Below, one piece after another: positions 32,307 to 36,910 of a stretch of 64,000 nt of DNA; positions within the stretch are counted from its first letter, which is position 1; each line of letters starts with the position of its first letter. Below the pieces are notes generated by a model, which saw only the letters and a program-made list of their open reading frames with translations, did no database searches and was not told the DNA's origin. Both the position numbers and the translations under genes were made by a program. This DNA comes from Hyphomicrobiales bacterium (GTDB lineage: Bacteria > Pseudomonadota > Alphaproteobacteria > Rhizobiales > Rhizobiaceae): the NCBI GenBank assembly GCA_900471815.1, contig UICE01000001.1, forward strand, positions 1 through 64,000. The letters run 5' to 3'.

Positions 32307-32666
32307 CTAAAAGCTAGACATTTGCACTTCAGGAGTTTCACACATCTTTTTTGATCCGGTCTTGGTGGCATTATCAATAATACCAGAGGCGAGGTCGGAA
32401 ACGACTTCAACAGCGATATCTTCCGGCAAACCGGTCTCCGCCATGCCGGCCCGCATAGCTGCCTCACTTGCTTCAGTACCAGTACCGCAAATATAGGCCT
32501 TGGCTTCCAATACAGCCGCCCTTTGGAACTTCTTATTACTAATATCGCCGCCCTCACCTTCGGTTTCCAGAGACCCCTTGATGCTGAAAGCATGACTTGT
32601 CATAACAGGGGCAAATGCCAGAAACCCTGTCGTAAACAATATCATTGATGATCTTAAAAGGTGCAT
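32307..32666 (-). CDS. Small secreted cysteine-pair protein, unknown function
   Basis: Starting at ATG 32666, preceded by AAAGGG, the 119-residue protein has a signal peptide (MHLLRSSMILFTTGFLAFAP, cleavage near SHA-F) and a mature domain with two cysteines (AYICGTG and KKMCETPE) that could form a periplasmic disulfide. No family recognised. The frame is open upstream to 32774 but without a good start. Confidence 0.72.
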   Translation of the reverse strand: MHLLRSSMILFTTGFLAFAPVMTSHAFSIKGSLETEGEGGDISNKKFQRAAVLEAKAYICGTGTEASEAAMRAGMAETGLPEDIAVEVVSDLASGIIDNATKTGSKKMCETPEVQMSSF

Positions 32667-32884
32667 GATTCGCCCTTTCCAGCCATAGTCCAAAGCGCGG
32701 CAGTTTGCCGTTTTCAACCTCGTTAACCCATTATAAACGATGCGGAGCCGTTTGCGTTCCCCGGACCTCTTCAACTGGCTGTGATGTCTCGCTTAAAACC
32801 AAGCGAAAATGTTGCATTGCACCAACTGCAATGCTGCTATGCAATATTGTCTGTATTAAATCACGGTGATTGAGTTATTTTCAG

Positions 32885-33012
32885 ATCAGGAATTTTCGAC
32901 AGCGTCACCTCCTCCCGACCCTGTCGAAACGGACGGTCTCTTCTCCTCCCAGAAGACCCTCCATAACCAACGAAACCCACCGCACCTCCTCCCGCGGTGG
33001 GTTTTGTTGTTT
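32885..33012 (+). ncRNA. Alpha-r14/cuckoo-type small RNA with three anti-Shine-Dalgarno hairpin loops
   Basis: Three consecutive hairpins each expose the same CCTCC-containing loop. Hairpin 1: TTTCGACAG (32894-32902) with CTGTCGAAA (32921-32929), an inner GTC/GAC pair and loop ACCTCCTCCC (32907-32916). Hairpin 2: GGTC/TTCT with AGAA/GACC (32935-32958) and loop CCTCCC (32945-32950). Hairpin 3: AACCCACCGC (32974-32983) with GCGGTGGGTT (32994-33003), loop ACCTCCTCCC, followed by TTTGTTGTTT, so it is also the terminator. Conserved CUCCUCCC loops define the alpha-r14 (Smr14C) and cuckoo (CcsR) RNA families of alphaproteobacteria, which bind ribosome-binding sites of mRNAs. The 5' end is not fixed; no confident promoter was found. 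Confidence 0.85.
32974..33012 (+). terminator. Terminator of the small RNA
   Basis: A ten-base perfect stem (AACCCACCGC/GCGGTGGGTT) with a ten-base loop is followed by TTTGTTGTTT. It is the third hairpin of the small RNA. Confidence 0.88.
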
Positions 33013-33612: not shown

Positions 33613-34884
33613 TCAACGAACAAGAATTGCCCGCAAATCGTTTACATTTGTTCCAGTGGGTCCGGGTACAAAAAGATCCCCAATGGCATCGAATGCCGTC
33701 CACGCATTATTGCCATTGAGATAGGCCGATGCGTCCTGTCCCTTTGCCAGCAAACGCGCCACCGTTGTGCTATCGGCAAATGCACCTGCATTGTCTTCGG
33801 AACCATCAATGCCGTCCGTATCGGCGGCAAAAGCACTGATGCCATTGGCGCCATCAATATCCATGGCGAGCGACAACAGGAATTCGGTATTGCGACCCCC
33901 TTTGCCCTTTCCGCGCACTGTGACTGTGGTTTCGCCGCCGGAGAGGATCACAACGGGTTTCGTAAAAGGCTGTCCTTTTGCAAGCACGTGTTTTGCAAGA
34001 GCCGCATGCACATGAGCAACCTCCCTCGCCTCGCCTTCTATTGCGTCAGAGAGAATGACGGCCTCGATGCCATTTTCCCGCGCAACTTTGGCAGCAGCTT
34101 CGAGGGAAACGCCAGCCGATGCTATGACATGGTGTTCGTGACTCTTGAAAACAGCATCACCTGGTTTTGGAGCATCCGCAGCATGTGATTGAAGATGCGC
34201 AAGAGCTGCGGCCGGCAAGTCGAGACTGTAGCGGTCCACAATTGCCAGCGCCTCTTCCCGCGTTGTTTCGTCCGGAACCGTAGGCCCGGAAGCGACAAAT
34301 GCAGGATTGTCTCCGGGAATATCCGACACGACAAGCGAATATACCCGGGCCGGAAATGCCGCTGCAGCAAGACGTCCGCCCTTGATGGTGGATAAGTGCT
34401 TGCGAACCGCATTCATTGCCGAAATTGGTGCTCCTGAAGCCAGAAGAACCTTGTTCACTGCAATCTCGTCCTCAATGGTCATGCCGTCCGGCGGCGATGG
34501 CAGCAATGCAGAGCCCCCACCCGACACAAGGGCGATGACAAGATCATCCGCCGTCAAACCAGACACGGTTTCCAGAAGACGTTTCGAGGCGACGAGACCC
34601 GCCGCATCGGGCACTGGATGGGACGCTTCGATAATTTCTATGTGCTCGCAGGCCACGCCAAAACCATAACGGGTCACGACCAGTCCTTCGATGGATGAAT
34701 CAGGATATTTGGCCGTCCATGCTTTTTCAAACGCGCTCGCCATTTGCGCCGAACCTTTGCCTGCGCCGATTACAATCGTCCGGCCTTTTGGCCTTGGTGG
34801 CAGGTGAGATGCAATCACGCGCTCAGGATTGGCGGCGTCCACAGCAGCGCGGAACAGTTTGGTGAAAAACTCCTTGTCTCCCAT
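33613..34884 (-). CDS. Glycerate 2-kinase (GckA/TtuD, MOFRL family)
   Basis: The protein of about 423 residues has the DUF4147 N-terminal half (VIGAGKGSAQMASAFEKAW, ALVSGGGSALLPSPPDGMT) and the MOFRL C-terminal domain (ILSGGETTVTVRGKGKGGRN). These enzymes phosphorylate glycerate to 2-phosphoglycerate in serine-cycle, tartrate or glyoxylate metabolism; older annotations call them hydroxypyruvate reductases. The ATG at 34884 lies four bases after the stop of the Dabb-domain gene, so the two are probably coupled. Confidence 0.92.
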   Translation of the reverse strand: MGDKEFFTKLFRAAVDAANPERVIASHLPPRPKGRTIVIGAGKGSAQMASAFEKAWTAKYPDSSIEGLVVTRYGFGVACEHIEIIEASHPVPDAAGLVASKRLLETVSGLTADDLVIALVSGGGSALLPSPPDGMTIEDEIAVNKVLLASGAPISAMNAVRKHLSTIKGGRLAAAAFPARVYSLVVSDIPGDNPAFVASGPTVPDETTREEALAIVDRYSLDLPAAALAHLQSHAADAPKPGDAVFKSHEHHVIASAGVSLEAAAKVARENGIEAVILSDAIEGEAREVAHVHAALAKHVLAKGQPFTKPVVILSGGETTVTVRGKGKGGRNTEFLLSLAMDIDGANGISAFAADTDGIDGSEDNAGAFADSTTVARLLAKGQDASAYLNGNNAWTAFDAIGDLFVPGPTGTNVNDLRAILVR

Positions 34885-34889
34885 GGGTG

Positions 34890-35201
34890 TCAAACTTCCA
34901 GATCGAACACAAAGACGCCGTCCGGTCCGCCAATGGCTGAAGAGACGATGCGCCCGCCAATGGCTTGATGTTCCGGATGAATGAGATAGGCATCCCGCGC
35001 CGCGGCGTCAGCGAAATCAATCAGAAAGCCTTCGGTAAATCCTTTATCCATGCCCACCTCCGGGCTGACATTGACACCGGACCGGAAGGTCAAGGCGCCC
35101 GGCAGTTTCGCGCAGAGTATGGCGAGATCATCATAACAAGCCTGTCTATCCGACGTGGGAACCCCATCACGAAAACGGATAAAAACACAGTGACGGATCA
35201 T
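34890..35201 (-). CDS. Dabb (stress-responsive A/B barrel) domain protein
   Basis: The 103-residue protein is a single dimeric alpha+beta barrel domain: MIRHCVFIRFRDGVPTSDRQ at the start, GVNVSPEVGMDKGFTEGFLI in the middle and HPEHQAIGGRI near the end. Substrates of such proteins vary widely. It lies directly upstream of the glycerate kinase gene on the same strand. Confidence 0.88.
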   Translation of the reverse strand: MIRHCVFIRFRDGVPTSDRQACYDDLAILCAKLPGALTFRSGVNVSPEVGMDKGFTEGFLIDFADAAARDAYLIHPEHQAIGGRIVSSAIGGPDGVFVFDLEV

Positions 35202-35285: not shown

Positions 35286-36677
35286 TCAGGTCAAAATGCG
35301 CTCTACGGCCATTGCCATAGCAAGCAACCTGCGGTCGGTACCGTGCTGCGCCATGAGCATTAGCCCCGCTGGCAGTGCCATATCCGGCATCGGCAGGCTG
35401 ATCGCGGTCAGATCAAACTGGTTGGCCACCTGCGTATTGCGCAGCAGCAGCGATTCTGTTTCCCGGTAGAAATTTTCATCGCTGACCGCCTCGATCGAAG
35501 GAGCCATAATTGGCACAGTCGGCAAGGCCAAAAAATTATAGACTCTCAATCGCTGATCCATTTCATGCATCAAAGACTGACGTTTCAACATGAGGTCGAT
35601 GTAATCGGATTCGGACGTCTCCAACCTACGCAAGAGCGGACGCTGCACACGCTGGTCTACGTCCAGGCTTTCATCTCGCAACCATCCCGCGTGAATCCTG
35701 CTGGCTTCGATACCTGCAATCGATCCGACCAAGGTTGCTCGCGCCATGGCCTCAATCAGGTCATCTATCGAACAGTCGACAATCGTCGCACCGGCTTTTT
35801 CGCAGGCTTGAAGACTTAAATCGAATGCCTTTTCAATTTCCGATTCGATATTGCTGAATAATATACCGCGCGGCACGCCAATATGCAGGCCGGACAATGA
35901 GAACTGATCGAGGGGCTGCGGACGCTCCCCCGCCAAGACCGAGTCGGTAAATGCGCAGTCTGCTACGTTTCGCGCCAAAGGCCCAATGGAATCCAGACTG
36001 GGCGAAAGGGGAAACGCGCCTTGCCGAGGAACGCGCCTGGCGGTTGGTTTAAAACCGGTCACGCCATTCAAAGCCGCTGGAATCCGTATCGAACCGCCCG
36101 TGTCCGAGCCGATTGAAATTTCGCTCGTGCCTTCCGCTATCGAAATTCCAGCTCCGATAGATGAGCCGCCAGCCACGCGCGAAGAATCCATGGCATTGCC
36201 TGCTGTCGGATAGTGCGGATTCAAGCCTACTGCGGTGAATGCAAACTCGGTCATGAGTGTTTTGCCGATGATGACCGCACCCGCTGCGCGCAATCGCTGC
36301 ACGATGAGCGCATCATTGGTCGCTGCCGCAGCCGTTTTCCGTATCACCGAGCCAGCCAAGGTGACCTCCCCGGCAACGTCGAACAGATCCTTGATGGAGA
36401 CTATTCGCCCATCGAGCGGCCCAAGCGTTTCGTTCTTGCGGAAGCGACTGTCCGAGGCCTGCGCCTCCTGGCGCGCTGAACCGGCATAGAGGCGGGTAAA
36501 AACCCGCTCGTCTGCCTCACGCTCCATCAAGCGCGCAAGAATATGTTCAAGCCTTTGGGAGGCCGACGGATTTGGATTTGGCAAGAAAATATCCCGCTGG
36601 AAATGTTGCGTCACGCTTTCTATAGCGCGAAGACCTTGCGGGTTAAAGTCCGGTAACTTGCCATGCACCGAGTGCAA
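35286..36677 (-). CDS. Amidase signature family hydrolase
   Basis: The 463-residue protein belongs to the amidase signature family with a Ser-Ser-Lys triad: Lys in VSIKDLFDVAG, the cis-serine in GSDTGGSIRIPA and the Gly/Ser-rich VAGGSSIGAGISIAEG (the usual second GG is IG here). It hydrolyses an amide, substrate unknown; similar proteins are annotated as glutamyl-tRNA amidotransferase A-like. The start is uncertain: TTG 36677 and GTG 36668 are both possible and no ATG is near. Confidence 0.88.
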   Translation of the reverse strand: MHSVHGKLPDFNPQGLRAIESVTQHFQRDIFLPNPNPSASQRLEHILARLMEREADERVFTRLYAGSARQEAQASDSRFRKNETLGPLDGRIVSIKDLFDVAGEVTLAGSVIRKTAAAATNDALIVQRLRAAGAVIIGKTLMTEFAFTAVGLNPHYPTAGNAMDSSRVAGGSSIGAGISIAEGTSEISIGSDTGGSIRIPAALNGVTGFKPTARRVPRQGAFPLSPSLDSIGPLARNVADCAFTDSVLAGERPQPLDQFSLSGLHIGVPRGILFSNIESEIEKAFDLSLQACEKAGATIVDCSIDDLIEAMARATLVGSIAGIEASRIHAGWLRDESLDVDQRVQRPLLRRLETSESDYIDLMLKRQSLMHEMDQRLRVYNFLALPTVPIMAPSIEAVSDENFYRETESLLLRNTQVANQFDLTAISLPMPDMALPAGLMLMAQHGTDRRLLAMAMAVERILT

Positions 36678-36766
36678 GGGTGCGTTGCAACATTCATAGT
36701 TTTAAATCGATATTATTTGAAGCAATCTACGCAACAGGGAGGGCAACAATAAAAGGGGTAAGAGCC

Positions 36767-36910
36767 ATGAGCCTTCGCAATCGCATTCAGAAATATCGTC
36801 AATATCGCCAGAATCTCCATGAGCTGCGCCTGTGCAGCGATCGCAATCTTGCTGATCTTGGAATTTCCCGCGCCGACATCCGCCAGATTGCCTGGATGGC
36901 GTGCAACTAA
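36767..36910 (+). CDS. DUF1127-domain small protein
   Basis: The 47-residue basic protein MSLRNRIQKYRQYRQNLHEL... contains the DUF1127 core (LRLCSDRNLADLGISRADIR). Members of this family in alphaproteobacteria, such as CcaF1 of Rhodobacter, bind RNA and take part in RNA turnover and stress response. The ATG at 36767 follows AAGGGG at eight bases; the open frame to 36680 is upstream read-through. A terminator follows directly. Confidence 0.88.
   Translation: MSLRNRIQKYRQYRQNLHELRLCSDRNLADLGISRADIRQIAWMACN

Follow-up and report, generated by a model that had tools for sequence, protein, structure and literature searches.

A small RNA of the αr14 family with three C-rich loops and a conserved LysR-type promoter box beside a glycerate-kinase-like gene, most likely in Phyllobacterium

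The stretch of DNA analyzed here (the window, 64,000 nucleotides) carries an ar14-family small RNA at 32890..33012 on the + strand. Its sequence and setting make it likely that the RNA is a trans-acting, base-pairing repressor of uptake genes, expressed from its own promoter and activated by a LysR-type regulator. The RNA is a further member of a known family, αr14, whose structure and mode of action have already been published (PMC10746234, PMC7143759). An earlier note on this DNA, written from the letters alone, was largely right in its reading, and that reading is largely known. A well-described RNA family is now placed in Phyllobacterium, and no paper naming both Phyllobacterium and NfeR1, a Sinorhizobium member of the family, was among the literature matches listed. 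The new points, as predicted from sequence, are a similar LysR-type box at a nearby DUF1127 gene and an apparent lack of the NtrC/ntrB wiring.

Family membership was established with covariance models. The Rfam model ar14 (RF02344) matches the window at 32890-33009 (+) with 81.6 bits, above the curated cut-off of 58.8, and the match covers the whole model, positions 1-123. The covariance search proposed in the earlier note thus confirms its alpha-r14 assignment. Our own covariance model gives 153.3 bits at 32890-33012, the window itself being among the sequences that built it. Beyond two tRNAs, the 64-kb window has no other Rfam match at the gathering level. We infer a transcript that is most likely about 120 nt long and made from its own promoter, with its start placed by the family model and by the distance to the box upstream. 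Shared with RF02344 are three hairpins, C-rich loops, and a terminator-like third hairpin. The window RNA differs in having CUCCUCCC instead of CCUCCUCCC in hairpin 2, and it scores below the best copy of its genome (81.6 versus 105.9 bits). That top-scoring copy follows a DUF1127 gene on contig C19. Five ar14 copies in the genome exceed the cut-off, the window copy included: two lie behind DUF1127 genes, one lies behind a phasin-like gene, and the remaining two, the window copy among them, are intergenic. Among 59 relatives, 43 have an ar14 match at E 0.001 and 35 a match over the cut-off; 15 of the 16 without a match belong to other families of the order. Ten named genomes were searched through their loci, and all have copies over the cut-off.

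The RNA is strongly folded. The 128-nt stretch that contains it reaches -54 kcal/mol, compared with -27.7 (sd 3.0) for shuffled sequences (z -8.66; 0 of 200 as good). Hairpin 1 (32894..32929, +) presents the loop ACCUCCUCCC at 32907-32916. In hairpin 2 (32931..32962, +), CUCCUCCC occupies 32943-32950 and is partly taken up by the stem in the minimum-energy fold. Hairpin 3 (32968..33009, +), which is also the probable terminator, again presents ACCUCCUCCC, at 32984-32993. The loops had been described as identical. This is true of loops 1 and 3, which both contain the full family 9-mer CCUCCUCCC, and an 8-base core is found in all three; loop 2 is one base short. The sequence around loop 2 is UUCUCCUCCCA, missing the first C of the family 9-mer (8 of 9 bases), and hairpin 2 is tighter than the others, with only CCUCCC open in the minimum-energy fold. 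CTCCTCCC occurs on the + strand at 32909-32916, 32943-32950, and 32986-32993. Four sites are found on both strands of the window, where shuffles average 1.16; this count is modest by itself since 4 of 100 shuffles equal it, and three of the four sites fall inside 85 bases. Hairpin 3 has a 16-bp stem that continues into GGTTTTGTTGTTT. A terminator scan did not list this hairpin on the + strand; its loop is 10 and the limit of the scan is 8. Two other sites were listed by the scan, compared with 0.3 in shuffles.

The gene next to the RNA is glycerate-kinase-like (gck, 33613-34893). Among the 80 named gck loci listed, the 15 closest to the window gene share 82-90% identity with it: 14 carry the label Phyllobacterium, with Phyllobacterium sp. 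YR531 the best match, and one, L047, is labelled Rhizobiales bacterium. Judged by gck similarity, this soil bacterium is most likely a Phyllobacterium. All 15 of these loci have the RNA. At the other 65, which include P. salinisoli, Brucella, Mesorhizobium, Ensifer, and Rhizobium, our own model gave no match at E 0.1 within flanks of up to 6 kb (on the expected RNA side, coverage is only 135 bases at L052 and 205 at L108). The same model does detect ar14 copies of other genera at other places. The gck gene also adjoins the RNA in four further aligned copies of the genus and in L187 of genome G010, giving 21 sequences in total, window included. The ortholog alignment consists of 20 sequences (17 distinct), without L187; L127 was excluded because it aligns only piecemeal and its 4.1 kb contain no gck.

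We used this alignment, together with copies from other genera, to examine selection on the structure. Across the 20 orthologs 98.8% of cells are paired, a value that none of 500 shuffles matches. Both-side changes are found at 2 of 39 pairs, in hairpins 2 and 3, and 15 of 500 shuffles reach two; further pair types are ordinary (238 of 500 shuffles as high). One change is a U-A/C-G exchange at columns 48/67 of hairpin 2. The other is a C-G/G-C exchange at columns 91/108 of hairpin 3, carried by one row (L129). Columns 44/71 of hairpin 2 are unpaired in 6 of the 17 distinct rows. Because the RNA is nearly invariant within the genus, pairing there is modest evidence alone. The stems hardly vary within the genus, but they differ between copies. 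Of all ar14 matches, a subset of 39 copies has tabulated flanks; the fold test used the 34 of these with at least 58.8 bits, and the conservation test used the 33 distinct copies among the 34.

Between genera the loops are held constant. Conservation across the 33 distinct copies averages 93-99% for the three CUCCUCCC cores and 69% for the 18 paired columns of hairpin 3. At the nine pairs of hairpin 3, 90.5% of cells hold standard pairs, where shuffles average 66% and reach 71% at most. Both-side changes occur at all nine, with a shuffled mean of 6.7 and some shuffles reaching nine, and the 19 pair types do not exceed the shuffled maximum of 21. Of 102 motif instances in the 34 copies, 87% are fully unpaired, compared with 35% when the remaining sequence is shuffled. 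An RNAalifold consensus of the 33 mixed copies recovers hairpin 3 alone (9 pairs), since the MAFFT alignment cannot cope with the variability of stems 1 and 2. Open loops on differing stems are therefore supported, while compensation pair by pair is only moderately supported. The earlier contrast of constant loops with variable stems holds across copies; within the genus the stems are near-constant.

Several open frames run through the RNA and could suggest that it encodes a short peptide, or a peptide in addition to a regulator. In all 20 orthologs four frames stay open across it, +0 and +1 plus two on the - strand. The ORFs that cross it include 86 aa (GTG) and 48 aa (TTG) on the + strand and 53 aa (ATG) on the - strand. 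Stops are rare in any case in such C-rich sequence. The + strand has no ATG-started ORF of at least 25 aa, L043 has a one-base gap within the RNA, and the changes that do occur keep base pairs. A coding role is highly improbable on these grounds. The claim that no protein gene overlaps the RNA is sound in so far as no known gene was seen, and should be amended to say that ORFs without family support cross it.

A conserved LysR-type box precedes the RNA. The box, TGCA-N6-GCAW-N3-TG-N3-T, is found at 32818..32840 (+), at -72 relative to the inferred start. Its pattern joins two published ones that overlap at GCAT, here relaxed to GCAW: that of LsrB at NfeR1 (TGCA-N6-GCAT at -72 to -60; PMC10746234) and that of VtlR (GCAT-N3-TG-N3-T; PMC7486931). 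All 20 aligned orthologs have the joined box at -72, as does L187. The whole genome has 17 such sites and none of the reversed control pattern. Three of the 17 precede, respectively, the window RNA, the DUF1127 gene at 36.77 kb, and the DUF1127-ar14 pair on C19, and 10 of the remaining 14 fall within long open frames. Within 300 nt the joined box is found in 8 of the 39 tabulated copies. It occurs at -71 in copies of S. medicae and S. fredii, which we call NfeR1-type because they uniquely combine this box with an NtrC box at -114/-115.

The box overlaps a second motif. The 15-mer CAATGCTGCTATGCA at 32829..32843 (+) has 2 mismatches from the VtlR motif CAATGCAGCCATGCA printed for Brucella (PMC12595884). 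If up to 3 mismatches are allowed, 19 of 20 RNA promoters carry the VtlR motif (9 with 2), compared with 9 of 1020 block-shuffled sequences, and 16 of 16 DUF1127 promoters carry it (9 with 2), compared with 15 of 1008; these counts call for caution, as orthologous promoters are not independent. In the window's own DUF1127 promoter the motif has 3 mismatches and lies on the other strand. It is within 300 nt of 12 of the 39 tabulated copies (10 of 1014 shuffled), and P. salinisoli has a perfect VtlR motif before a DUF1127-ar14 pair. The whole window holds 5 sites at up to 3 mismatches where 4.7 are expected, so the weight of the motif lies in position and conservation alone. Downstream of the box, the putative core-promoter region TATTAAATCA ... 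GAGTTATT (32854..32879, +) consists of invariant or near-invariant blocks in the 20-ortholog alignment. Its exact -35 and -10 are not fixed, and a sigma-70 consensus scan listed nothing on the + strand of this region. Conserved blocks alternate with poorly conserved stretches upstream of the RNA.

The regulator that binds the -72 box is probably a LysR-type activator of the LsrB/VtlR kind, as judged from the pattern of the box. LsrB is reported to activate NfeR1 (PMC10746234), and VtlR to raise three DUF1127 genes in Brucella (PMC12595884). A common switch is therefore plausible. AbcR RNAs, DUF1127 genes, and NfeR1 have each been linked to the LsrB/VtlR switch in separate publications, and this switch may be an input that the family has in common.

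Promoter conservation also bears on whether this copy is used at all. In S. meliloti only one of six copies was reported as reliably detected by Northern blot (PMC7143759), so the window copy could be a silent or near-silent paralog in a genome with five copies, the working RNA being another, such as the 105.9-bit copy on C19. However, both the promoter blocks and the RNA are strongly conserved in the 20 sequences of the genus while the upstream spacer diverges, and such conservation is not expected of a silent copy. We consider a silent copy unlikely and an active, LysR-controlled RNA the better reading.

The DUF1127 gene that shares the box encodes 47 aa (36767..36910, +; PF06568, 44.5 bits) and lies 3.8 kb downstream of the RNA, with other genes between. 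Its joined box (36664..36686, +) is outside the RNA and overlaps the open frame of a divergent amidase ORF. The gene is present in all 15 gck loci searched for it, the 14 labelled Phyllobacterium and L047, and is likely a co-regulated neighbor of the RNA. By eye, a terminator-like hairpin follows it. The earlier note had likened the RNA to CcsR. The likeness is that the CcsR1-4/CIN1 loci of Rhodobacter sphaeroides and the window each have a C-rich RNA and a DUF1127 gene in one neighborhood. A CcsR-like order is seen at two other copies of the genome, which directly follow DUF1127 genes. The CcsRs are reported to share a transcript with ccaF1 that starts at an RpoHI/RpoHII promoter (PMC10253847), whereas the DUF1127 gene of the window is downstream and has its own box. 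Because no DUF1127 ORF is found within 300 nt upstream of the window RNA, the comparison becomes looser.

Smr14C, also named as a relative, does belong to the same family, and its copy C2 is now called NfeR1. NfeR1 (Smr14C2, SmelC397) of Sinorhizobium meliloti and the window RNA have in common the family, an own promoter, anti-Shine-Dalgarno loops, a LysR-type box TGCA-N6-GCAW at -72, and transporter genes among predicted targets. NfeR1 is reported to pair its loop motifs with ribosome-binding regions (PMC10746234, PMC7143759). Unlike AbcR1/2, it is reported not to interact with Hfq (PMC8844928), so the Hfq co-precipitation suggested earlier as a check may well be negative.

The two RNAs differ in place, input, and output. 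The place beside gck is found only in Phyllobacterium and L047. An NtrC box is lacking at about -115: TGC-N11-GCA at about -116 to -101 occurs in 0 of 20 orthologs (150 nt upstream), while the NfeR1-type copy of S. medicae has an NtrC box near -115. A TGC-N11-GCA at -63 was rejected as an NtrC box, as it overlaps the LysR box and is present in 9 of 20 orthologs only. The ntrB mRNA is a poor predicted target in the window genome. With hand-chosen ATGs, and with the window RNA supplying the loops for all species, the duplex at the ntrB start is -3.1 to -7.8 kcal/mol in the window genome. It is stronger in S. medicae (-17.7 to -20.4), S. fredii (-16.8 to -18.1), and Rhizobium sp. BK376 (-13.5 to -18.6). 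In 13 other Phyllobacterium genomes four duplexes are near -14, one is near -12.8, and eight are -8.7 or weaker; P. salinisoli gives -8.1, B. tritici -10.8, and a Mesorhizobium -10.1. Given the weak ntrB pairing and the absent NtrC box, the Sinorhizobium nitrogen loop is not predicted in this strain, and it is doubtful in most of Phyllobacterium. This suggests that the NtrC input and ntrB output may be lineage-specific and the LsrB/VtlR input common.

The NfeR1-type locus of S. medicae and the window ORFs at 28-38 kb have a single similarity, the DUF1127 region (41% over 88 aa), which is directly 3' of the RNA in S. medicae and 3.8 kb downstream in the window. L001 and L004 have DUF1127 genes with a closer similarity to that of S. 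medicae (62-64%). In S. medicae and S. fredii (L165, L177) a DUF1127-like frame directly follows the NfeR1-type copy on the same strand. A tentative scenario, which we hold to be possible rather than likely, is that in Phyllobacterium the DUF1127 gene and the C-rich RNA are separately transcribed neighbors under one LsrB/VtlR-type switch, the RNA having been rewired from the NtrC-ntrB loop to a different input and different targets.

Candidate targets were sought by complementarity to the loops. The 9-base complement GGGAGGAGG has 21 sites in the genome, compared with 22 for the reversed control, and 9 of the 21 are in ar14 copies. The 12 sites outside these copies include no convincing start: the starts in reach at L219 and L220 read like internal codons, and L212 has an ATG with a 32-aa ORF. 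The shorter pattern GGAGGAG-N2-9-ATG gave 76 sites compared with 12 for the reversed pattern, 2 of the 76 inside ar14 copies. Keeping sites with an ORF of at least 60 aa left 44 proteins; these and the control proteins below were each scanned singly for their family. Of these, 17 are transport proteins: 7 ABC ATPases and 10 solute-binding proteins of ABC, TRAP, and tripartite systems. The control AAGGAGG (64 sites, 31 reversed) gave 27 proteins, or 21 without the 6 common to the GGAGGAG set, and the 21 include 3 transport proteins, one each of ATPase, solute-binding protein, and permease. The enrichment has a one-sided Fisher p of 0.04, or 0.06 when the six common sites are counted in both sets, and the test is weak because GGAGGAG is itself a ribosome site (Shine-Dalgarno). 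A GGGAGG pattern (265 sites, 52 reversed) was viewed at 30 loci, outside this tally. NfeR1 is reported to silence transporter mRNAs (PMC7143759, PMC8844928), and its validated targets are given as two solute-binding-protein mRNAs (PMC8844928) and ntrB (PMC10746234). The over-representation of transporters among predicted complementary starts agrees weakly with this account.

The seed is short and generic, each transcript would have three copies of it, and the genome has five copies of the RNA, all of which would suit a general decoy that ties up ribosome-binding sites and has no defined mRNA set. The weak over-representation of transporter genes speaks against such a decoy, as do the validated targets reported for NfeR1 (PMC8844928, PMC10746234), and we regard it as quite improbable. 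In the preferred reading, repression of uptake genes, an activator of the LsrB/VtlR kind would bind the -72 box and switch on the RNA. The three C-rich loops, redundant copies of one seed, would then base-pair with mRNAs at their purine-rich Shine-Dalgarno regions, and many of these mRNAs would encode uptake systems. This pairing would block ribosome entry and so damp the uptake genes.

Other anti-Shine-Dalgarno RNAs offer parallels. AbcR1/AbcR2 (Rfam suhB; alpha-r15) likewise combine anti-Shine-Dalgarno motifs acting on transporter mRNAs with LysR control (PMC8844928, PMC7486931), but they are a different RNA family, with matches elsewhere in the genome. There the suhB model has 4 matches at E 0.001 or less, 2 of them over the cut-off. 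The AbcR homologs were also tried as a route to lsrB and set aside: by eye, no LysR gene lies beside the two matches that pass the cut-off. SisA-D of Caulobacter crescentus are described as sibling RNAs with a common anti-Shine-Dalgarno 10-mer (PMC12559287). Neither the Caulobacter sponge paper nor the paper on DUF1127 attenuation in S. meliloti uses the name NfeR1 in its main text.

Further observations concern the surroundings of the window RNA and of other ar14 copies. A divergent small gene at 32307-32666 shares the intergenic region; it encodes 119 aa from its ATG, with a signal-peptide-like start by eye, and a Pfam search of the longer ORF there found no family. The same intergenic region has a reverse-strand TGCNNTGCAAYATT site at 32808-32821. 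Pairs of ar14 matches, tens to a few hundred bases apart on the same strand, are seen at L165, L177, L006, L030, L032, L033, L034, and L149. Other copies lie directly 3' of cold-shock-like genes in S. fredii (L172, L173), and the copy L005 of the window's own genome lies directly 3' of a phasin-like gene, all named by eye. A second TGCNNTGCAAYATT site (G000:C18:157932-157945, L415) stands 87 bases before a divergent 151-aa phasin-like gene, which is probably the gene that the fifth ar14 copy follows.
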